From: Streptomyces fragilis | Lineage (GTDB): Bacteria > Actinomycetota > Actinomycetes > Streptomycetales > Streptomycetaceae | DNA length: 64,000 bases | Direction of reading: 5' to 3' | Assembly (NCBI RefSeq): GCF_003112515.1 | Contig: NZ_BEVZ01000004.1 | Coordinates: 682,001-746,000, forward strand | In this document: positions 44,692 to 57,069 of the stretch, one piece after another | Position numbering within the stretch: position 1 is the stretch's first letter | Layout of the letters: each line of letters starts with the position of its first letter | Notes under the pieces: generated by a model | What the model was told of the DNA's origin: nothing | The model's database searches: none | What the model saw: the letters and a program-made list of their open reading frames with translations, nothing else | Translations under genes and position numbers: made by a program

Positions 44692-44985
44692 ACCGCCTCC
44701 GGCCCCGCTCGACGACAGTCGTCCGCCTCCGAGCGTAGGTGCGCCCGCCCGCTGCCGCGCGCCGGACGGGGCGGCACGGGTGGGCCGGGGGCGGCACGGG
44801 TGGGCCGTCCCTCGCGTGGGGCGTTCCGTGCCGTGGCGCGCGCCTCGGCCGGCGGCATCCTGCGCCGGCCCGCCCGCCGCCGGGGCGGGCCCGAGCAGCG
44901 GGCCGTGGCGCGCGCATCGTCCGGCGGCCCCACACGCCGTCACCGCGACGAGGTCTTCGCCCGTGACCCGTTACGCTCGGTGCAC

Positions 44986-46140
44986 ATGAGTGACACCCAC
45001 TTCAGCGAGCACTTCGAGACGCTGGCGATCCACGCGGGCAACACCGCCGATCCCCTGACCGGCGCCGTCGTTCCGCCCATCTATCAGGTCTCCACGTACA
45101 AGCAGGACGGCGTCGGCGGCCTCCGCGGCGGCTACGAGTACAGCCGCAGCGCCAACCCCACCCGCACCGCCCTAGAGGAGAACCTCGCCGCGCTCGAGGG
45201 CGGCCGCCGAGGTCTCGCCTTCGCCTCCGGCCTCGCCGCCGAGGACTGCCTGCTGCGTACCCTGCTCGCGCCGGGCGACCACGTGGTCATCCCGAACGAC
45301 GCCTACGGCGGCACGTTCCGCCTGTTCGCCAAGGTCGTCTCCCGCTGGGGCGTGGAGTGGTCGGTGGCCGACAGCAGCGACCCGGACGCCCTGCGCGCCG
45401 CGATGACCCCGAAGACCAAGGCCGTCTGGGTGGAGACCCCCTCCAACCCGCTCCTCGGCATCACCGACATCGCCGCCGCCGCGCAGATCGCCCACGACGG
45501 CGGGGCCCGCCTGGTGGTCGACAACACCTTCGCCACGCCGTACCTCCAGCAGCCGCTGGCGCTCGGCGCGGACGTGGTGGTGCACTCGCTCACCAAGTAC
45601 ATGGGCGGCCACTCCGACGTGGTCGGCGGCGCGCTGATCACCGCCGACCAGGAGCTGGGCGAGGAGCTGGCCTACCACCAGAACGCCATGGGCGCGGTGG
45701 CCGGCCCGTTCGACTCCTGGCTGGTGCTGCGCGGCACGAAGACGCTGGCCGTCCGCATGGACCGCCACTCGGAGAACGCCGCGAAGGTCGTCGACATGCT
45801 GAGCCGTCACCCCAAGGTGACGAAGGTCCTGTACCCGGGGCTGGCGGAGCACCCTGGGCACGAGGTCGCCGCCAAGCAGATGCGGGCGTTCGGCGGCATG
45901 GTGTCCTTCCAGGTCGCCGGTGGCGAGGAGGCCGCGGTGGCGGTCTGCGACCGCGCCAAGGTCTTCACCCTGGGCGAGTCCCTGGGCGGTGTGGAGTCGC
46001 TGATCGAGCACCCGGGGCGCATGACCCACGCCTCCGCCGCGGGGTCCGCCCTCGAGGTCCCCGCGGACCTCGTGCGCCTCTCCGTCGGCATCGAGAACGC
46101 CGAGGACCTCGTGGAGGACCTCCGCCAGGCCCTGGGCTAG
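44986..46140 (+). CDS. metB: Cystathionine gamma-synthase
   Basis: A 384-residue PLP enzyme of the Cys/Met metabolism family. The PLP Lys is K204 in SLTKYMGGHSDVVGG; YEYSRSANPTR, GLAFASGLAAEDCLL and LGESLGGVESLIEHPGRMTHAS are conserved. It joins an activated homoserine to cysteine to give cystathionine. Cystathionine gamma-lyase activity cannot be excluded by sequence alone, but ELVESLGG-type and PPIYQVSTYKQD segments suit the synthase annotation. A TACGCT -10 box ends eight bases before the ATG without a Shine-Dalgarno, so it may be leaderless. Confidence 0.88.
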   Translation: MSDTHFSEHFETLAIHAGNTADPLTGAVVPPIYQVSTYKQDGVGGLRGGYEYSRSANPTRTALEENLAALEGGRRGLAFASGLAAEDCLLRTLLAPGDHVVIPNDAYGGTFRLFAKVVSRWGVEWSVADSSDPDALRAAMTPKTKAVWVETPSNPLLGITDIAAAAQIAHDGGARLVVDNTFATPYLQQPLALGADVVVHSLTKYMGGHSDVVGGALITADQELGEELAYHQNAMGAVAGPFDSWLVLRGTKTLAVRMDRHSENAAKVVDMLSRHPKVTKVLYPGLAEHPGHEVAAKQMRAFGGMVSFQVAGGEEAAVAVCDRAKVFTLGESLGGVESLIEHPGRMTHASAAGSALEVPADLVRLSVGIENAEDLVEDLRQALG

Positions 46141-46360
46141 GCCTCGCCGGGGCGCGAGGGCCGAGCCAGGTCCTCGCCGGGCCGTGAGGCCTAGCCGGAC
46201 CAGGTCTTCGCGGGGCCGCGGGGCCTGAGCCGGGCCAGGTCCTCGCCGGGCCGTGAGGCCTAGCCGGACCAGGTCTTCGCGGGGCCGCGGGACCTAGCCG
46301 GACCAGGTCTTCGCGGGTCCGCGGGGCTCGGGCCGAGCCAGGTCCTCACCCGGCCGCGGG
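46141..46360. repeat. 34-35 bp tandem repeats after metB
   Basis: The stretch 46141-46628 has no gene. Its first part holds about six units opening CCTCGCCGGG or CTTCGCGGGG and closing CCAGGT, with a 69-bp higher-order period: 46165-46222 and 46234-46291 are identical over 58 bp. The array begins at the metB stop. Confidence 0.88.
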
Positions 46361-46495
46361 GCCCGGGCCGGGGGAACCGACGGTGCTTGCCCACCGGGTT
46401 CACCTGCCCCGCGCGGCTCCCGCACACGAGTCCACCGGGCCCGTCTCCCTCCGGGGGGCGGGCCCGTCGGGCTCAGGGGCACGGGGGCTCGGAAT

Positions 46496-46584
46496 CGCCG
46501 GGGTCGGACCCCGGAGGCTCAAGGCCGCCGGGCTCAGGCCCCGGAGGCTCAAAGCCCGCCGGGCTCAGGCCCCGGAGGCTCAAC
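46496..46584. repeat. 30-31 bp direct repeats upstream of the sigma-like gene's end
   Basis: Three units start at 46496, 46526 and 46557, each carrying CGCCGGG and ending CCCCGGAGGCTCAA; the second and third are nearly identical over 29 bp. They differ in sequence from the array at 46141-46360. The remaining bases between the arrays (46361-46495) are G+C-rich and show nothing I can name. Confidence 0.8.
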
Positions 46585-46628
46585 GGGGCGGCCGGGCGGC
46601 TCCCGGTGAAGACCGGCCCCGTGCCCCG

Positions 46629-47351
46629 CTACCCCCAGGCCCCCTGCCCGCGGAGGGCCACCGCGACGAGCACCCCCACCCCGAGCAGCACAGCCACCAC
46701 CCCCGCTCCCCGCACCACCCGCGACCGCCTCCGCAGCCGCCGGCCCTCCGCGAGGGCCCGCTCCGGCAGCCCCACCGGCGTCGCGGGCAACCGCACCGCT
46801 CCCAGAGCCCGCCGCGCCGCTGCCTCGCACTGCGGTCCGGTCCCGGCCGCGAACCCACTGGCCGCCCGTGTGGTCAGGGCCTCCACCCGACCCGGCGTGA
46901 GCCCCAGCAGCACCCCCGCGCGCTCGGGGTCGATCTCCTCGTGGAGCCGCAGCACCAGCACCAACCGGGCCAACGGCCGCAGCTCCGCCAACGGCGCGAG
47001 GTCACCGGCCGAACCGGGTGGGACAGCACCGCTCCGGTCGCCCCGGTCACGCCCGCTGCCCTGGCCACGCCACCCGTCCCGGACGCCCCGCCGGAAGCGA
47101 ATGCGCCGCAGGTACCCCCGCGTGAGCTCGGCCCGCGCCAGGTCGTACGGGTCCTCCCCGTCCATCCTCCGACCCCACCGGGCACAGGTCCGCGCCAGCG
47201 CCTCCGCCAGCAGCCGTCGCGCCGACGGGCAGTCCCGCGGATCCTCGGCGGTGAACAACGTGGCCGTGCGCAGCAGCCGTCCGCCGGACGCCGCGGCGAA
47301 GACCCGGAACTCCTCCTGGCCCCACCCTCCACCGACTCCGAGAGCCGTCAC
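46629..47351 (-). CDS. Sigma-factor-like protein with C-terminal membrane helix
   Basis: A 240-residue protein. Residues 10-80 resemble the start of SigE-type sigma factors (EEFRVFAAASGGRLLRTATL). Residues 120-170 resemble region 4 (LRPLARLVLVLRLHEEIDPERAGVLLGLTPGRVEAL), with a helix-turn-helix. Between them the region-2 DNA- and core-binding sequence is weak. A transmembrane helix closes the protein (about 213-234, VVRGAGVVAVLLGVGVLVAVAL). It may be a degenerate, membrane-tethered sigma or an anti-sigma-like regulator; I cannot decide. Very Arg-rich. Confidence 0.6.
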   Translation of the reverse strand: MTALGVGGGWGQEEFRVFAAASGGRLLRTATLFTAEDPRDCPSARRLLAEALARTCARWGRRMDGEDPYDLARAELTRGYLRRIRFRRGVRDGWRGQGSGRDRGDRSGAVPPGSAGDLAPLAELRPLARLVLVLRLHEEIDPERAGVLLGLTPGRVEALTTRAASGFAAGTGPQCEAAARRALGAVRLPATPVGLPERALAEGRRLRRRSRVVRGAGVVAVLLGVGVLVAVALRGQGAWG

Positions 47352-47445
47352 ATCCGCCCCCTCCCCCGGTCACCCGCCCCTCAGGCACCGCCCGTCCGCC
47401 CCCGCGGAGCCGCGGCCTCCGGGACCGCCGGGGCCCGCGGGGACC

Positions 47446-47997
47446 TCAGGACCCGGAAGGCTCCGCCGGCCCGCGCGCGCCGCCGAGGCCGCCCCCCGCC
47501 TGGCCCGCCATCCGTTCCGACAGCGCGTCGTTCATCCGCGTCAGCAGCCCGCAGAAGGAGTGCCGCTCCTCCTCCGACCAGTCCTCGGTCAGCTCCGCCA
47601 TCAGCTGCCGCCGGGACGCACGGACCTCCTCCAGCCGCGCCCGCCCGCGGGGCGACAGGTCGAGCACCACGGCGCGGCCGTCCTCCGGGTGCGAGGTCCG
47701 CCGGACCAGGCCGGCCTCGACCAGGGGCGCCACCTGGCGGGTGACCGTGGAGGAGTCGATGCCCATCCCGGCGGCCAGCGCCTTGACCCCCATCGGGCCT
47801 TCCTGTTCGAGACGGTTGAGAAGCAGGTACGCCGCACGGTCCATGGAGTCGCGCAGCCGTCCGACTGCCCCCAGCCGGGTCTGCTCGGCGCGGCGCGCGA
47901 ACAGGGCCATCTGGTACTGGAGCGACTCGAGGAGACCGTCGTCGTCGGTGGTCGTCACGTCCATCGACTCCATCGAGATGTCGGGTGCAGTGGGCAT
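47446..47997 (-). CDS. MarR-family transcriptional regulator
   Basis: A 183-residue winged-helix dimer. LTAYLL-type dimer helices, then GVKALAAGMGIDSSTVTRQVAPLVEAGLV as the recognition unit and HPEDGRAVVLDLSPRGRARLE as the wing are all present, with an acidic C-terminal helix (TEDWSEEERHSFCGLLTRMN). The start at 47997 has only a weak upstream GTGAG; ATGs at codons 9 and 12 are alternatives. It is divergent from ilvA; the inverted repeat at 48071-48134 lies between them. The ligand is unknown. Confidence 0.88.
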   Translation of the reverse strand: MPTAPDISMESMDVTTTDDDGLLESLQYQMALFARRAEQTRLGAVGRLRDSMDRAAYLLLNRLEQEGPMGVKALAAGMGIDSSTVTRQVAPLVEAGLVRRTSHPEDGRAVVLDLSPRGRARLEEVRASRRQLMAELTEDWSEEERHSFCGLLTRMNDALSERMAGQAGGGLGGARGPAEPSGS

Positions 47998-48070
47998 GGC
48001 CGGAAGCTCACTTCGATCTGGGCCGGTGATGGGGGACAGGCTACGCGGACTCGCACCGGTGCGTAATGAG

Positions 48071-48134
48071 CCTGTGGAAAACCTGTCCCCGCAGCGTCAG
48101 GCCCTGGGCACGACCGGCCACGGTTTTCCACAGG
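48071..48134. promoter_or_regulatory. 13-bp inverted repeat with two DnaA-box-like words
   Basis: CCTGTGGAAAACC (48071-48083) and GGTTTTCCACAGG (48122-48134) are perfect inverted copies 38 bp apart, in the marR-ilvA divergent region. Each contains TTTTCCACA, one mismatch from the classical DnaA box TTATCCACA. The right copy is 38 bp before the ilvA start. Confidence 0.6.
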
Positions 48135-48172
48135 GCAGGTGGCGCTCGAGTTCTCCCTGCGAGACTGGCCCC

Positions 48173-49402
48173 ATGAATCACCGCACATCCGCGGCTCCGT
48201 CCCCCGTCACGCTCGACGACGTACGCGGCGCCCAGAAGATGCTCTCCGGCATCGCGCGGGTCACCGGCCTGGAGGGCAGCAGGTACCTGTCCCGGCTGGT
48301 GGGCGCCCCGGTGCACCTGAAGTGCGAGAACCTGCAGCGCACCGGGTCGTTCAAGCTCCGCGGCGCCTACATCCGGATCGCCGGCCTGCTCCCCGAGGAG
48401 CGCGCGGCCGGCGTGGTGGCCGCCAGCGCGGGCAACCACGCGCAGGGCGTCGCCCTGGCCGCCTCGCTGCTCGGCGTGAAGGCGACGGTCTTCATGCCGA
48501 AGGGCGCCCCGCTGCCCAAGATCAGCGCGACCAGGGAGTACGGCGCGGAGGTCATACTCCACGGCCAGGTGGTCGACGAGACCATGGCCGCGGCGATCGC
48601 CCACGCCGAGGAGACCGGTGCGGTCTTCATCCACCCCTTCGACCACCCCGACGTGATCACGGGGCAGGGCACGGTCGGGCTGGAGATCCTCGAACAGTGC
48701 CCCGAGGTCCGCACCATCGTGGTGGGTGTCGGCGGCGGCGGTCTGGCCGCCGGGATCGCGGTCGCGGTGAAGTCCCTGCGCCCGGACGTCAGGATCGTGG
48801 GCGTGCAGGCCGAGGGCGCGGCCGCCTACCCGCCCTCGCTGGCGGCGGGCCACCCGGTGGCGGTGCCCCGGCCGGTGACGATGGCCGACGGCATCAAGGT
48901 GGGCCGGCCGGGCGAGGTGCCGTTCGCCCTGGTCAGCGAGCTCGTCGACGAGGTGCGCACGGTCGGCGAGGATCAGTTGTCGGCTGCGCTGCTGCACTGC
49001 CTGGAGCGCGCGAAGCTGGTGGTGGAGCCGGCCGGCGCCAGCCCGGTCGCGGCCCTGCTGGCCGACCCGCGGTCGTTCCGGGGCCCGGTGGTGGCGGTCC
49101 TGTCCGGCGGCAACGTGGACCCGGTGCTGCTCCAGGGCGTCCTGCGGCACGGCATGACGGTGCAGGGCCGCTACTTCGCGGTCCGCGTCCGCCTCGACGA
49201 CCGTCCGGGCTCCCTCGCCACCCTCCTGTCGGTCCTCTCCGAGATGGACGCCAACGTCCTCGACGTCAGTCACCGCCGGACCGCCCCGCGCCTGGGCCCC
49301 ACCGAGGCGGAGGTGGAGGTCCACCTGGAGACCAAGGGTCCCGAGCACTGCGCCGAGGTGCACCGGGCGCTGCGCGCCGCGGGCTACGCCATAGCGGACT
49401 GA
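48173..49402 (+). CDS. ilvA: Threonine ammonia-lyase
   Basis: A 409-residue PLP enzyme turning threonine into 2-oxobutyrate. PLP Lys61 lies in RTGSFKLRGAY, the phosphate-binding Gly loop is VGVGGGGLAAG, and ASAGNHAQGVALAASLLG is the substrate Asn loop. Residues about 335-405 form an ACT domain (VRLDDRPGSLATLLSVLSEM), as in the shorter, catabolic or CimA-like single-ACT type, so the role may be biosynthetic (isoleucine) or catabolic. The ATG starts the conserved sequence; no good Shine-Dalgarno is present. Confidence 0.92.
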   Translation: MNHRTSAAPSPVTLDDVRGAQKMLSGIARVTGLEGSRYLSRLVGAPVHLKCENLQRTGSFKLRGAYIRIAGLLPEERAAGVVAASAGNHAQGVALAASLLGVKATVFMPKGAPLPKISATREYGAEVILHGQVVDETMAAAIAHAEETGAVFIHPFDHPDVITGQGTVGLEILEQCPEVRTIVVGVGGGGLAAGIAVAVKSLRPDVRIVGVQAEGAAAYPPSLAAGHPVAVPRPVTMADGIKVGRPGEVPFALVSELVDEVRTVGEDQLSAALLHCLERAKLVVEPAGASPVAALLADPRSFRGPVVAVLSGGNVDPVLLQGVLRHGMTVQGRYFAVRVRLDDRPGSLATLLSVLSEMDANVLDVSHRRTAPRLGPTEAEVEVHLETKGPEHCAEVHRALRAAGYAIAD

Positions 49403-49568: not shown

Positions 49569-50693
49569 ATGGAATTCATCTGGGTGCTCTTCGCCGTCGC
49601 CTTCCTCGGCTTCGTCGTCGCGTCGATCTACCGCCGCAGGAACGCCGGCGGCATCGCCCTGGCACGCCCGGGCGACCCCGACGCGGCCGACCCGGCGGCG
49701 TACGGGTTCCTCCGCCAGGAGGACCTGGACGTCCGGCTGCCCGGCCCGGACCAGGACCTGACCGACGTCCTGGACCTGGTGCAGCGCACCCAGGACTACC
49801 GGGCCGCGGCCCAGCTGCTGGCCGGTACAGAGAAGGAGGGCGAGGCCCGCTGGCAGCGCGTGCAGGCCTTCGCGGGCGCGGCCTCGCTGGAGCTCGCCCA
49901 CAAGCCGGCCGGCGACCCGTCGCAGACGCCCGGCGGCCAGTGGCTGCGCGTGTGGCGCACCGAGCAGCCCAAGGACGCGGGCGGCGCGGCCGTGCACGCG
50001 GAGTTCCTGGTCCAGCAGGCCTGGCGCACCTCCACGCCCGGCAGCGACGAGTTCCGGATCATCATGGAGGAGGCCAGGGAGGCCTGCGGCCAGGCCGCGC
50101 TGCTCGCCCCCGGCGACCCCGTCCCGTACCTCACCGAGCTGTCGGTGGCCCGCGGGCTCGGCTACTCCCGTGAGGAGTTCGAGCAGCTCTGGCTCAAGGT
50201 CCTGGACCGCGCCCCGCACCACATGGGCGCCCACCTCGCCGCCCTGCACTACTGGTGCGAGAAGTGGTACGGCTCCCGTGAACTGGCCTACTCCTTCGCC
50301 GAATCGGCGGCCGCCCGGGCCCCCGAGGGCTCGCTCCTGTCCGCGCTCCCCCTGTTCGCCGTCTTCGAGCACCTGCAGGAACTGACCCTGGTGGCGAGCC
50401 TGTACGAGAGCGAGGTCGTCACCAAGGCGATGCACGGCGCGCTGTACGCGGCGGGCCGCGCCCGGCCCGACGACGCGGTCCTCCCGCACGTGCGTCACCT
50501 GCTGATCTGGTTCCTGGTGAACGCCTCCCGCTGGTCGGAGGCGATGGGCCAGCTGATCCACGTGGACGGCCACGTGGGCGCGCTGCCCTGGACGCTCAGC
50601 CAGGACCCGGCCGCCGAGTACGCCGTCTACCGTGCCCTCGCCGTGGCCGGCTTCGAGGCCAACGGCGGCACCCCGGCGTCGCTCCTGCACTGA
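49569..50693 (+). CDS. Membrane-anchored protein, paralogue A of the M48 cluster
   Basis: A 374-residue protein of unknown function. One N-terminal helix (about 3-21, FIWVLFAVAFLGFVVASIY) is followed by a cytoplasmic, mostly helical region that resembles TPR-like solenoids. It shares APHHMGAHLAALHYWCEKW and the later VDGHVGALPWT with the protein encoded at 52607-53758 ([19 protein letters not shown] and [11 protein letters not shown]), so the two are paralogues. It lies 270 bp before the M48 protease gene with a hairpin between, so it may be a separate transcript. Confidence 0.75.
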   Translation: MEFIWVLFAVAFLGFVVASIYRRRNAGGIALARPGDPDAADPAAYGFLRQEDLDVRLPGPDQDLTDVLDLVQRTQDYRAAAQLLAGTEKEGEARWQRVQAFAGAASLELAHKPAGDPSQTPGGQWLRVWRTEQPKDAGGAAVHAEFLVQQAWRTSTPGSDEFRIIMEEAREACGQAALLAPGDPVPYLTELSVARGLGYSREEFEQLWLKVLDRAPHHMGAHLAALHYWCEKWYGSRELAYSFAESAAARAPEGSLLSALPLFAVFEHLQELTLVASLYESEVVTKAMHGALYAAGRARPDDAVLPHVRHLLIWFLVNASRWSEAMGQLIHVDGHVGALPWTLSQDPAAEYAVYRALAVAGFEANGGTPASLLH

Positions 50694-50807
50694 CCGCAGC
50701 GCCGCCCCGGGCACTCCGGAGGCACCGGGCCGACCGGCGGTGCCACGGCACCGGCACCCGTCCGTCGCCCAGGTCGCCGTCCGTCGCCCACAGGTTGCCG
50801 TCCACCG

Positions 50808-50844
50808 CCGCCGCCCCGAACACCTTTGCGGTTCGGGGCGGCGG
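50808..50844 (+). terminator. 13-bp hairpin between paralogue A and the protease
   Basis: CCGCCGCCCCGAA pairs perfectly with TTCGGGGCGGCGG around an 11-nt loop, 115 bp after the paralogue A stop. It probably ends that transcript. The right arm follows directly on the -35 box of the next promoter candidate. Confidence 0.7.
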
Positions 50845-50855
50845 TGCGTCATAAT
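50826..50855 (+). promoter_or_regulatory. Promoter candidate for the M48 gene
   Basis: TTGCGG (50826-50831), an 18-bp spacer and CATAAT (50850-50855) fit a vegetative Streptomyces promoter. It would give a leader of about 100 nt before the ATG at 50964. Confidence 0.55.
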
Positions 50856-50963
50856 CCGCATCCCCCACACGGCCCCGGCCGCGCCTTGTCATGCCCTTTT
50901 CCAGCCGCTTTTCCCCTTTGCTCCTCCTCGTTGCCCTCTTCCAGTGATGTGTAGGGAAGCTCC

Positions 50964-52607
50964 ATGAGTTCCACACTGCGGGCCGTCCGCGCCCTGATCC
51001 TGCTCGCGGGATTCCAGTTGCTCAGCCTGGTCCTGCTCGGCGTCCTGGCGGCCATCGACTGGGCGGCGGTCTACGCCCCCAGCAGCGTGACCACCAAGGT
51101 CTGGCTGGTCTCGGTCGTGCTCGCGGTTCCCGTGGTCCGAGGCATGTTCATGCTCCGCCTGCCGGACATCGAGGAACCCCCGGGCGTCCCGCTCACCGAG
51201 GAGGCCGAGCCCCGGCTGTGGGCCATGGTCCGCGAACTGGCCGCCGCCGCCGGGACCCGTGCCCCGGACACCATCATCCTGACCGCCGAGGTCAACGCGT
51301 CCGTGATGGAGCGCCCCCGGCTCGGTGGCCTGCTCCCCGGCCGCCGCAGCCTCCACCTCGGCCTGCCGCTGCTCACCGGCCTGAGCGAGGCCCAGTTCCG
51401 CTCGGTGCTCGCCCACGAGTACGGCCATTACATCGGCGGCGACACCCGCCTCGGCCCGATCGTGGCCCGCGGCCGCCTGCAGATCCGGCGCACCATCGCC
51501 CACTTCCACGAGAAGGCCGACAAGAAGGTCGCCCAGGAGCGCGCCGAGCAGGAGAAGAAGTCCGCCCGCCGGGTCGCCAAGGGCAAGAAGGCCAAGGAGG
51601 TCGACACCACCGGTGCCGGCGCCACCTACCGGGCCATGGCGAAGATCTACACCTGGTACGGCACGTTCTTCCTGCGCGCCTCGCAGTCCACCGCCCGTGC
51701 CGAGGAGTTCGCCGCGGACCGCTCCGCCGCCCGCCTGGCCGGCCGCGACGCCACCGCCTCCGCCCTGCGCGAGATCCCGGTGCTGTCCTCCGCCTACGAC
51801 TTCTACCTCGAGTCGTACGCCACCCTGGGCCTGGACGCCCGCACCATGCCTCCGCACGGCGCCTTCTTCGGCGGCTTCGGCGACCTGCTGACCGCCCGCG
51901 AGCTGCAGCTCGCCGACATGCGCGCCGAGCTTCCCGTGCAGCAGCTCTCCCCGTACGACTCCCACCCGCCGATCGGCGAGCGCGTGCGCGCCGTCGAGGC
52001 CCTGCCGGACGACGGCCGCGCCGACGACGGCCGCGGCTCCGCCCTCGGCCTGTTCACCGACCCGCGCGCCCTGGCCGCCGCGCTGGAGCCCGCCGTCCTC
52101 GCCGAGGAACTCCTGGGCTTCCGCCGCGCCGAGGACTGGCCGGACGTCCTGCGCTCCGGCATGACGGCCCGCCTCGGCGAGCTCGACACCCCGCTGCACC
52201 GGGCCCTCGCCGTCTACACCAAGTCGGCGGCGACCCTGCCCGCCCTCCTCCAGGTGATCGACGAGGGCCACCTCTGGCAGCTGGCCCGTCGCCTCCCCCT
52301 CTCCGAGGAGGCGTCCGCCGCCCAGGGGCGCGCCTTCCGCGAGTTCGTCCGCCCCTCGCTCGAAGGCATCCTGCGCACCTGGGTGATCTCCGAGCTGAGC
52401 AAGCAGGGCCTGCTGGACTGGGAGTTCTCCTGGACGCAGGCGGCCACCGTGGTCCTGCCCGGCGGCGACCCGGAGGCGGCGGGAGAGGCGCTCGACGCCG
52501 CCGTCACCGCCGCGCTCGCCGACGTGCCCGACACCGCGCCGCTGCGCGCCCTGCTCCCCCCGACGCCCGCCGAGACGGGCACCGGCACCGACATCGAAAG
52601 CGTGTGA
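50964..52607 (+). CDS. Membrane M48-family metalloprotease
   Basis: A 547-residue membrane zinc protease. Two helices at about 8-32 and 42-62 anchor it. The zinc motif is HEYGH at 151-155 and the third ligand lies in AEEFAADRSA (Glu248, Asp252). A Lys/Ala-rich coil at about 178-210 sits between them. The C-terminal 250 residues are helical and family-specific. It resembles Ste24/HtpX-type enzymes that cut membrane or misfolded proteins. The gene overlaps the start of paralogue B by one base (TGATG), so the protease and that protein are made together. Substrates are unknown. Confidence 0.88.
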   Translation: MSSTLRAVRALILLAGFQLLSLVLLGVLAAIDWAAVYAPSSVTTKVWLVSVVLAVPVVRGMFMLRLPDIEEPPGVPLTEEAEPRLWAMVRELAAAAGTRAPDTIILTAEVNASVMERPRLGGLLPGRRSLHLGLPLLTGLSEAQFRSVLAHEYGHYIGGDTRLGPIVARGRLQIRRTIAHFHEKADKKVAQERAEQEKKSARRVAKGKKAKEVDTTGAGATYRAMAKIYTWYGTFFLRASQSTARAEEFAADRSAARLAGRDATASALREIPVLSSAYDFYLESYATLGLDARTMPPHGAFFGGFGDLLTARELQLADMRAELPVQQLSPYDSHPPIGERVRAVEALPDDGRADDGRGSALGLFTDPRALAAALEPAVLAEELLGFRRAEDWPDVLRSGMTARLGELDTPLHRALAVYTKSAATLPALLQVIDEGHLWQLARRLPLSEEASAAQGRAFREFVRPSLEGILRTWVISELSKQGLLDWEFSWTQAATVVLPGGDPEAAGEALDAAVTAALADVPDTAPLRALLPPTPAETGTGTDIESV

Positions 52608-53758
52608 TGACCGTACTGCTCTGGATCCTCGGGATCCTCGCCCTGCCCGTGGTCGCCTTCGGCCTCTACCTCGGGTTCGTCTTCGTCAAGACATTCATCA
52701 AGCACGACCCCGACGCGCCCGACGAGAACGCGGGCGCGGAGGCGGCCGCGAAGCTCGGACTGCTCCCCGCCGGCCGCCTCGACCTGGACCGGCCGGGCGC
52801 CGCGGACCCCGCCGCCGAGGCCGTCCTGCAGGCCGTCCGGCGCGGTGACTGGGAGGCCGGTGCCCGGTTCCTGGCCGAGGCGGGCCGGGACTGGGAGGAG
52901 CGCGGCCGACGGGTGAGCATCCTCGGCCACGAGGCCGCCAAGGAGGACGCCTGGCTGCTGGCCTGGCGCGCGGCCCGCCCCGGCGACGCGGACGCCGCGC
53001 TGGTCAACGCGGAGTCGATGATCTACCTGGCCTGGGAGATCCGGGGCAGCATGCAGGCCAAGAACACCACCCGCGAGCAGTTCGACGGCTTCCACCGGGT
53101 GCTCGCCCAGGCCCGGGAGGCCTGCGCGGAGGCCCAGGCGCTGGGCGGGGACGACCCGAACCCGTACGTGGTGGAGATGCCGCTGGCGATGGGCCTCGGC
53201 TACTCCCACAAGGACTTCAACGACCTGTGGGACCAGGCCGTCGAGCGCGCCCCGCACCATCTGGGCGCCCACCAGTCCGCGCTGCAGTACTGGTGCGCCA
53301 AGTGGCGCGGCTCCCACGAGCTGGCCCTCTCCTTCGCCCGCGAGGCCGCGGCCAAGGGCGCCCCCGGCCAGCTGCTGACGCTGGTCCTGCTGGAGGCCCA
53401 CTTCGAGTTCGAGTTCGCCCACAAGGACCTCGACGAGGACGAGTACTACAAGCGCCCCGAGCTGATGAAGGCGGTCGACGCCGCCCTCCTCGACCTCGCC
53501 GCCGCCGCTGCCGAGGCCGGCGACCCGAAGGCCCGGCGTCTGCTGCCGATGCGGCACATGCTGGCGTACATGCTGTACTGGCAGGACCGGTACGAGGCCG
53601 CGATGGAGCAGTTCAAGCTGATCGACGGCCACATCGGCACCGCCCCGTGGACCTACCTGGCCGGCAAGCCGCGCTTCGCCGAGCGGTACACCGCGATCCG
53701 CGACTTCACCGCCGTCCGCGTCCTGGAGGCGGCGGAGGCCCACACCGCCACCGCCTGA
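52607..53758 (+). CDS. Membrane-anchored protein, paralogue B of the M48 cluster
   Basis: A 383-residue protein with one N-terminal helix (about 2-26, [21 protein letters not shown]), then an Ala-rich helical cytoplasmic region resembling TPR-like solenoids. Motifs shared with paralogue A are given under that gene; here [18 protein letters not shown] matches GLGYSREEFEQLWLKVLD as well. Its ATG overlaps the protease stop. This strongly suggests a partner of the protease, such as a regulator or substrate adaptor. Function unknown. Confidence 0.75.
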
Positions 53759-53922: not shown

Positions 53923-54606
<684 letters not shown>

Positions 54607-54628: not shown

Positions 54629-55708
54629 TCACCGTCGTGCCGGCGTCCCAAGGCCCGTCGGCACGGGCGCGGGCACGGCCATGCCCTCGCCCTCACCGGG
54701 GAGACGGGCCTGGTCGGCCCGGGCCAGGCACTCCGGGCACCGTTCCGGATCCGACCCCCGGTAGCCGCGGTCACAGTCCTCGCAGTTGCGCAGCGGGTGC
54801 CGCTCCGGCAGCCGCTCGACGACGGCGGAGGGACGCCGGGGCAGCGGCGGGGGCAGATCGGCGTTCAGCCGGTACGCGACGAAAGCCGCAGGCCGCCGCA
54901 GCCCTTCCTCCGGGAGCCCCGTGAACAGGGCTCGCCGCACCTCCCCGCAGGTGACGTCACGCTCCAGCCAGGCCACCACCCCGGGCGTGAGGTGTTCGAT
55001 CTCGCCCGAGGAGAACCGGAGCTCGGACACGTAGGACCTCAGCCCGGTGAGCAGCTCGACGGCCCGTCGCACCAGGTCCGGTCGGGACAGCCACGGCTGC
55101 GGCACGGGCGGCAAGGGCTTGCGCTCCTTCGCACCGCATTGCCCGGGGGGCGGCACGGTCCGCGACTGCGCGGGCGCGGACGCGGGCTGCGGCTCGGCGG
55201 CACTCGGCCCCCAGACCGGCGGAGCCTCCGCCGTGCCGGTCGCGGCGACCCTCGCATCGGCGGTCGTGGCAGCCTCGACCGCCCGGGGACGGCGCGACGA
55301 CGCGGGCCGGTTCTCCCCCGCCCCCTCCTCGCGGACCTCCGCCCTCTCGCCGCGGGCCGCGGCCTCCGGGTTGTTGCAGAACACGGTCCGCGTGAGGATC
55401 CGGCCTCCCGCGCCACGGATCTTCTCCCGCCGCAGGTAGCCGTGCTCCACCAGCTCCCTCAACGCGGCAGCGATGCGCAGCGCGCCCTCGGGCCAGCGCT
55501 TGGCCAAGGTCTTGATGCCGATGGGCGAACCCGGTGGCAGCGACTGGATGTGCACCGCCAGCCCGACTGCCGTCAACGACAGCGACCGGTGCTGGGCGAC
55601 GTGATTGCCCACGACGGTGAACTGCTTGGCGTGCCGGTGGATCTCCTGCACCACGCCGCCGCACCGGGCGGCGTCAAGAACGCGCCCGCTAAGATGCCCT
55701 TTACCCAT
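54629..55708 (-). CDS. Winged-helix DNA-binding protein with C-terminal zinc motif
   Basis: A 359-residue protein of a type found in several copies in Streptomyces genomes. Residues 1-115 hold the conserved HAKQFTVVGNHVAQH and LSLTAVGLAVHIQSLPPG and a winged helix (IGIKTLAKRWPEGALRIAAAL, then RELVEHGYLRREKIRG). A Pro/Ala-rich linker leads to a helical part and a C-terminal CEDCDRGYRGSDPERCPEC zinc site. It is likely a DNA-binding regulator; its target is unknown. It lies between msrA and a predicted nuclease. Confidence 0.75.
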   Translation of the reverse strand: MGKGHLSGRVLDAARCGGVVQEIHRHAKQFTVVGNHVAQHRSLSLTAVGLAVHIQSLPPGSPIGIKTLAKRWPEGALRIAAALRELVEHGYLRREKIRGAGGRILTRTVFCNNPEAAARGERAEVREEGAGENRPASSRRPRAVEAATTADARVAATGTAEAPPVWGPSAAEPQPASAPAQSRTVPPPGQCGAKERKPLPPVPQPWLSRPDLVRRAVELLTGLRSYVSELRFSSGEIEHLTPGVVAWLERDVTCGEVRRALFTGLPEEGLRRPAAFVAYRLNADLPPPLPRRPSAVVERLPERHPLRNCEDCDRGYRGSDPERCPECLARADQARLPGEGEGMAVPAPVPTGLGTPARR

Positions 55709-56091
55709 CAGGAAGTTCGGCCTTCCTCGGTGGTCAGACCCTCGTCCGGGATTGCCGTCCCGGCGGGGGTCGTCTCATGTCTGCGGTTGTCTGAGCAGAG
55801 CGTAAGCCCGCGATCCACCCAACCCGGCTCCTGGGCGGGCATATTCACTCACCCGTGTGAGCACCGCGCCGGGCCTCGCCGCGCCGGGGAGGCGGGAGGG
55901 GCTTGGCAGGCCTTCTTTCCTCCCAGGTCTTTCGGTAGTTGGAGCATCCCGCACCACCAGAACCCAGCCACCCGGGTCCCGGTTACGTGCGTCCCAGGAG
56001 CGAGGGGGCGCGGAGGCTCCGGCCCGGCGACGGACCCGACGGGTCGTCAACTCGGGCGCAGCCGCAGCCAATGCACTTGTACGCTGCAAGC
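55709..56091. other. 383-bp gene-free stretch before the HNH gene
   Basis: This divergent intergenic stretch has no credible gene. It is lower in G+C than its flanks in parts (for example 55920-55945) and carries a TACGCT -10 box at 56080-56085, six bases before the HNH gene's ATG. No -35 box is convincing. A 6-bp hairpin CCGGGA / TCCCGG lies near 55750. Confidence 0.5.
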
Positions 56092-57069
56092 ATGAGTGGG
56101 GCGGGAGAGCAGGGACGCAGGGCCTGGTCGTTCCTGGTGGCCGGCGAAGCCCGGCAGTTCCAGGGCAACACCGGATACGACGACGTGCTGGAGGAGTCGT
56201 ACAGCTACGACTCGACGGTGGGCAACCACAAGCAGGTGGCCGCAGGTGATCTGGTGGTGGTCCGGGACGGACGGGCAGCCCTCGGGGTGGGTCACCTGGA
56301 GCGCGTGGACGTTCTGGGGCTCGGCGAGAAGGCGCGGCGGCGGTGCAGGAACCCGGACTGCCGGGACACCGGGTTCAAGGAGCGGAAGACCAAGCCCGTC
56401 TCGGAGCGATACCTGTGCAGCCGTTGCGGCTGGGTGTTCGAGGACCCTTGCATCGAACTCCTCGAGGTGACCAACTTCCGTGCCCACTACGGCGCCACGT
56501 GGCAAGCGCTCGAAGGTGGCCTCGGCAAGGACGAACTGGAGCCCCTGTACCTGCACCGGTCCAAGCAGCAGTCGATCCGGGAGATGGACCGGCATGCCAC
56601 GCTGGCGAAGCTGGCTGCGTACGGAATACGGCTCCCCTCCCCCAGCGAGGCAGCCGACCGCCGACGACACCCCGGTCGGCTCCCCGGTGGCCATCGCCGT
56701 GCCGAGGCAGCCGTGCGGCGCGGACAGGACGCCTTCCGGCAGGCGCTGATACGCGAGTACGGCATGATCTGCGCAGTCACCGGCCCCGCGCCGGCCGAGG
56801 CCCTCCAGGCCGCACACCTCCGCCCGTTCGCCGCACACGGGGTCCACCGGGTGGAGGAAGGGCTGATGCTGCGGGCCGACATACACAGCCTGCTCGACAA
56901 CGAACTCCTGGCCATAGGGCCCGATCTGAAGGTTCACGTCGCCCCGAACCTGCTGGGTTACGACGCGTATCGATCACTGCACGGCACGCAGGTGGACATC
57001 CCGGAGAACGCACCGTTGGACATGGAGATCGTCAGGCAGGCCTACGAGAAGGCCACTGCCACCTGGTGA
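56092..57069 (+). CDS. Predicted modification-dependent HNH nuclease
   Basis: A 325-residue predicted restriction enzyme. Residues 10-80 resemble a PUA/EVE-like reader fold (WSFLVAGEARQFQGN, NHKQVAAGDLVVVRDG, GVGHLERV). Residues 85-112 hold a CRNPDC...CSRC zinc site. Residues 224-275 hold an HNH domain (ICAVTG, LQAAHLRPFAAHG, EEGLMLRADIHSLLDNELL), with the His, Asn and His in place. This layout suggests a type IV nuclease that cuts DNA with modified bases; that is inference. The ATG may be leaderless. The gene uses several rare ATA codons and sits among accessory-looking genes, consistent with transfer. Confidence 0.75.
   Translation: MSGAGEQGRRAWSFLVAGEARQFQGNTGYDDVLEESYSYDSTVGNHKQVAAGDLVVVRDGRAALGVGHLERVDVLGLGEKARRRCRNPDCRDTGFKERKTKPVSERYLCSRCGWVFEDPCIELLEVTNFRAHYGATWQALEGGLGKDELEPLYLHRSKQQSIREMDRHATLAKLAAYGIRLPSPSEAADRRRHPGRLPGGHRRAEAAVRRGQDAFRQALIREYGMICAVTGPAPAEALQAAHLRPFAAHGVHRVEEGLMLRADIHSLLDNELLAIGPDLKVHVAPNLLGYDAYRSLHGTQVDIPENAPLDMEIVRQAYEKATATW

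Follow-up and report, generated by a model that had tools for sequence, protein, structure and literature searches.

What does a membrane protease do between two copies of one membrane protein family, and which of the three act together? The question is raised by a stretch of 64,000 nucleotides from Streptomyces fragilis (contig NZ_BEVZ01000004.1, positions 682,001 to 746,000; "the window" below means this whole stretch), in which three genes in the same orientation, here labelled A, P and C, encode a zinc metalloprotease (P) and its two flanking proteins (Table 1). An earlier note, made from the letters alone, described an M48 protease between two paralogous membrane proteins and saw in them a possible complex of the protease with two duplicated partners resembling tetratricopeptide repeat (TPR) proteins. 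The arrangement itself is borne out by the coordinates, a Pfam profile search and a BLASTP comparison of A with C (163 bits, E 3e-51, 33% identity). As for the partnership, the pairing of P with C is conserved, whereas A stands independently of P: of 199 Streptomyces genomes, 196 have A, and in 32 an intact P lies beside it. The earlier interpretation is partly supported and needs correction, the unit being P with C, and A a separate core protein. The chances are about even that P is a cytosol-facing membrane M48 protease for which C serves as a dedicated, membrane-anchored TPR-like partner.

These counts use E-values up to 1e-60 for A and up to 1e-30 for P, and "beside" means that P follows A at once or with no more than a further family member in between; the A/C family comprises A, C and their relatives, and the loci and genomes compared carry labels in L and G (L010 is Streptomyces abyssomicinicus). 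A is found in 156 of 297 Streptomycetaceae genomes and three of 17 genera, P in 44 of the 199 Streptomyces genomes; in G151, a contig end hides whether A precedes P. Since A is present in nearly every Streptomyces and an intact P lies beside it in so few, the gene-order survey proposed in the earlier note spoke against A as a standing partner, as the paralogue is widely found without the protease; many C-type copies are so too. Seen from the side of P, the survey gave a different answer. The DNA around P was read in all 44 genomes, which hold 48 P genes: 34 adjoin a member of the A/C family that is not A, 10 have no such neighbour, three lie at contig ends and one is a remnant. In all cases but L147, in which it is upstream of P, this neighbour is located downstream on the same strand. 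Forty further P loci were fetched, 38 from other Streptomycetaceae genera (33 of 55 genomes) and two from outside the family, and a C-type neighbour is present in 24 of the 40, which is not a survey value, a second batch having been picked among weaker P matches.

In the window, the stop codon of P (TGA, 52605–52607) and the ATG of C overlap by one base, so that the one-base overlap mentioned in the earlier note belongs to C; overlaps of one or four bases recur in 16 of 57 loci with measured spacing. P–C pairs also occur without an adjacent A or ilvA (L150, L158–L162, L253, L256–L260). Because the pairing recurs at several genomic sites, hitch-hiking at one place does not explain it, and the linkage of P and C, at several sites and across genera, is real. 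Leaving aside P and the A/C family, an all-against-all comparison of neighbours in 33 loci revealed no neighbour family in more than five, and thus no recurrent extra partner of a lone C or a lone P. Individual genomes show further states of the locus. G109 has kept A and C while P is gone, and G016 retains a P remnant only (L169, 6177–6533; residues about 432–537) directly after A, a loss in progress. L147 and L152 have a further local copy in the form of a divergent family member, placed between A and P, with 36–38% identity to C.

How did the three genes come together? In 10 of the 40 fetched loci (L242, L243, L245, L248–L252, L261, L278), P and C without A lie beyond ilvA, at the site which in Streptomyces holds A, P and C; marR also precedes the pair in these loci, L249 excepted, and msrA follows in six. 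A forms a clade of its own (48 rows, SH-like approximate likelihood-ratio support 100) and is the slowest of the three genes, with a mean pairwise identity across 24 loci of 76%, compared with 62% for P and 55% for C. Probably, P–C is the older pair, A was added in Streptomyces and kept as a core gene, and P–C was then often lost; this is the simplest history that we can infer, with the direction of change unrooted. Of 87 P proteins placed on a tree, 84 tips were scored for the presence or absence of C, and this state changes at least eight times; given so few changes, the presence or absence of C is mostly inherited with the P lineage. The window P groups with L123–L137 and the window C with L138, L139, L141, L145 and L170, and from these trees it appears that P lineages have exchanged C genes.

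A match to PF01435 (39.6 bits, curated cut-off 20.3) identifies P as an M48 peptidase. It carries the catalytic motif HEYGH at residues 151–155, EEFAAD with the downstream glutamate ligand at 247–252 and SHP at 333, and HExxH is kept in every compared P whose match spans that site. Hydropathy predicts two hydrophobic helices, 11–29 and 46–64, and basic residues precede the first. As in HtpX, itself a membrane M48 protease, N-terminal helices precede HExxH in P; however, P shows two hydrophobic peaks only and an extra C-terminal region of about 190 amino acids, for which Pfam gave no match. HtpX models are the nearest NCBIfam relatives of P, all far under their cut-offs (best score 26.8 bits, cut-off 245), and P is therefore not an HtpX orthologue.

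A and C each have one N-terminal membrane helix by hydropathy (residues 3–21 in A and 2–20 in C), as had been noted before, and both shared motifs of the earlier note are present: A contains APHHMGAHLAALHYWCEKW and DGHVGALPWT, and C carries counterparts of both. Calls of membrane orientation are based on the positive-inside rule. By this rule, the RRR after the helix of A and the basic residues before the first helix of P place the domain of A and the active site of P on the cytosolic side, so that P is probably cytosol-facing; the topology signal of C is weaker.

The claim that the flanking proteins are TPR-like gained some ground, through matches that are themselves weak. AlphaFold models of A and C, built from four sequences, are all-helical (mean predicted local distance difference test score, pLDDT, 70 for A and 57 for C). 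When these models were searched against the PDB with Foldseek, most of the listed matches of either one were TPR proteins (best E 8.3e-3 for A and 7.5e-4 for C), those of C including LapB–LpxC (8v24, E 7.6e-3) and LbcA (7rqf, E 2.3e-2). VIA-align superposed C on many TPR chains with Z about 12 and a root mean square deviation of 5–10, which is not decisive for helical repeats. With Pfam TPR profiles at E up to 1, the window A had no match and the window C a weak one to TPR_10 (E 0.12), while TPR_12 matched six of 24 A/C family members (best E 1.6e-4). From the models, the Foldseek and VIA-align results and these profile matches of single members, a TPR-like fold is therefore likely for A and C, but not proven. 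DUF4034 matched five of the 24 members at E up to 0.1 (best 3.6e-4); C scores 15.8 bits against a cut-off of 21.3 and A has no match, which leaves both outside this family.

Other possible roles and origins of the family found little in their favour. Across the 24 members, only P216, W233, G235, F243, A244, W348 and R365 are invariant, and with so few such residues a catalytic role of the common His/Trp/Cys motif was rejected, the pattern looking structural. PADLOC profiles matched A, P and C with no family at E up to 0.1, which argues against a defence system, and a viral origin was discarded, as no relative was confirmed among viral contigs. Relatives of A and C were found on eight plasmid records, all from Streptomyces, Kitasatospora or Embleya. 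Among the nearest relatives, 30 of 31 genomes contain the family, each with one to seven matches, whereas a phylum-wide sample has it in only 10 of 296 genomes, nine of them Streptomyces, with the six best candidates scored per genome. A third paralogue in the S. fragilis genome (contig C4, 951367–952326) is shorter, at 320 amino acids, and without an evident membrane helix. Sequence searches of solved structures gave no convincing relative of P or of the A/C family, and neither the profile libraries nor the literature searched supplied a function for A. No paper was found on DUF4034 or on SCO4957 (a locus tag guessed for A), and among the matches listed for M48 proteases, Streptomyces and TPR proteins and for HtpX in Streptomyces, the titles and abstract beginnings name none on the A–P–C locus.

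Which known systems does the pair resemble? In Escherichia coli, LapB (YciM) and FtsH combine a membrane metalloprotease with a cytosolic TPR protein which delivers the substrate LpxC. LapB has a single-pass membrane layout. The likeness to P–C is one of layout, without a shown sequence relation: the protease FtsH is of the AAA+ type and P of the M48 type, Pfam (E up to 1) gave no rubredoxin match for either A or C, and the lipopolysaccharide substrate of the E. coli system is inapplicable to Streptomyces. BepA of E. coli likewise unites an M48 catalytic domain with TPR-type repeats. There, however, the repeats are part of the same, periplasmic chain, whereas here they would sit on separate anchored proteins and P has N-terminal membrane helices; TPR families gave no match to P at E up to 1 in Pfam, and P is thus not of the BepA type. 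In Pseudomonas aeruginosa, LbcA, to which C is weakly matched through 7rqf, is the membrane-attached TPR partner of the protease CtpA. Unlike P and C, however, CtpA belongs to the serine proteases and acts in the periplasm, and LbcA is a lipoprotein. P–C is like LapB–FtsH or LbcA–CtpA in layout only and a member of neither.

By analogy with LapB and FtsH, binding between C and P would take place within the membrane plane, and C would present or license substrates that lie in the membrane or close to it. A, the near-universal paralogue of C in Streptomyces, must have some role without P in most species; perhaps it serves a different protease or complex, and in species that have kept P it may still cooperate with it. 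In its fullest form, the proposal is of a protease–adaptor system of the Streptomycetaceae's own, with a family of membrane-anchored TPR-like adaptors in which C serves P and A has been freed as a core protein for other clients, while a nearly genome-unique inverted repeat, lying between the transcript start and the ribosome-binding site of P, gates the synthesis of P; this wider version is tentative and, as a whole, doubtful.

A membrane protease, an anchored repeat protein, overlapping genes and a repeated linkage are together best matched by a protease with a dedicated adaptor. The roles may also be distributed differently, with C (and A) as substrates or membrane regulators, so that P would cleave off their soluble domain or C would inhibit P until a signal arrives. 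The single-pass anchor, a short connecting segment with many charged and small residues before the domain, the existence of soluble paralogues free of the helix (e.g., 320 amino acids in L009 and 318 in L199) and the overlap of the genes, typical of many regulator pairs, are in keeping with such a role. The linker nevertheless varies widely in length and sequence among C proteins, and the anchor of A is unchanged where P is absent from the genome; this reading is held to be rather unlikely. Neutral gene order, with P and C co-inherited at the ilvA–msrA site and no joint function, draws on the many P–C loci at that site, on the phylogenetic clustering of the state with or without C and on the differing histories of P and C in the window. 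Yet it has to contend with the pairs away from ilvA and A (L158–L162, L253, L256–L260), with the overlapping genes and with the second family member that adjoins P in L147 and L152, and we hold it to be unlikely. That P works with both neighbours, A being a constitutive subunit, is very unlikely: that A lies upstream of P in 32 Streptomyces genomes follows from the fixed place of A at this site, A is present in nearly all of the 199 genomes and P is not, and P–C occurs without A at the same site in other genera. A and C as equal partners of P were rejected on the same pattern, A being near universal without P and P–C existing without A.

The preferred reading of P as a protease with C as its adaptor has several observations against it as well. 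One large P clade is wholly without C, the remainder being mostly with C, and among the 84 scored P genes 26 have no C, so that C is dispensable for the working of P-type proteases; conversely, C-type copies are frequent without P nearby (L171–L180, L182, L196–L202). A tree in which the window C is held with the C genes of P's closest lineages was rejected (p-AU 0.0048, for a constrained grouping chosen after inspection of the tree), and since P and C also take different positions in their trees, the two need not co-evolve tightly. Finally, the structure models of A and C are poor to middling, and most Foldseek E-values lie close to 1e-2.

The DNA ahead of P has features of its own. In many Streptomyces P leaders, those of L123–L146 among them, TCCCCCCAC lies close to where the transcript presumably starts and GTGGGGGGA lies at the ribosome-binding site, and in relatives the C-rich arm is complementary to the ribosome-binding region; in the window, both arms are degraded. 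The strict pattern of TCCCCCCAC and GTGGGGGGA separated by 20–50 bases was detected in six of 16 genomes. Each of the six has it just once, and for five of them the P leader is the place. Folding predicts the pairing of the arms in many relatives (z-scores about -5.8 to above 0), while the lowest-energy fold of the window leader lacks the hairpin; the pairs are conserved, but covariation does not exceed that of shuffles. The G-rich arm is also present in P genes of other genera, including those without C. The repeat could act through RNA control of translation or as a DNA operator. The 14-bp inverted repeat in the gap between A and P was not found at that length in other such gaps and may be a terminator or an operator. 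Scans for sigma-70 promoters and for terminators yielded nothing above chance.

Table 1. Features of the A–P–C locus and its neighbours (positions in the window).
Feature	Position	Strand	Description
ilvA-type threonine dehydratase	48173–49402	+	PALP and ACT domains; upstream neighbour in the window
Gene A	49569–50693	+	374 amino acids; single membrane helix at the N terminus, followed by a helical TPR-like domain with predicted cytosolic location; Streptomyces core protein
Inverted repeat	50808–50844		Perfect, 14 bp with 9-base spacer; in the A–P gap; also in S. abyssomicinicus L010
C-rich leader segment	50857–50872	+	Just after a CATAAT box (by eye); degraded in the window
Ribosome-binding region of P	50945–50960	+	GTGTAGGGAAGC (in relatives GTGGGGGGA)
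Gene P	50964–52607	+	547 amino acids; M48 zinc metalloprotease; HEYGH/EEFAAD/SHP; two N-terminal hydrophobic helices
Gene C	52607–53758	+	383 amino acids; paralogue of A; one N-terminal membrane helix; TPR-like
msrA	53923–54606	+	Peptide methionine sulfoxide reductase; follows the locus in many relatives

The surroundings of the locus differ in part from those in other species. In most of the other Streptomyces loci read, the order is ilvA (minus), marR (plus), a metB-like gene (minus) and A (plus); in the window, the metB–marR–ilvA block (44980–49402) is inverted with respect to these. S. abyssomicinicus was the single relative found in the genome contig search, with 95% identity across C, and because an open reading frame fitting marR on the minus strand also precedes its A, the inversion is probably real and specific to this clade. 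Further downstream lie a 341-amino-acid gene on the minus strand without a Pfam match (54629–55654), adjoining it the Streptomyces small RNA scr4677 (Rfam RF02673, 104 bits; 55709–55964, minus strand), and a gene resembling HNH_2 endonucleases (56071–57069; PF13391, E 8.4e-10).

If P and C cooperate, Gram-positive bacteria would have an M48 protease whose TPR-like adaptor is a separate, membrane-anchored protein, and this in a genus that is cultivated to produce antibiotics. Such cooperation, if true, would also provide a handle on A, which almost every Streptomyces has kept, and the natural presence or absence of P–C beside a constant A offers ready-made comparisons.

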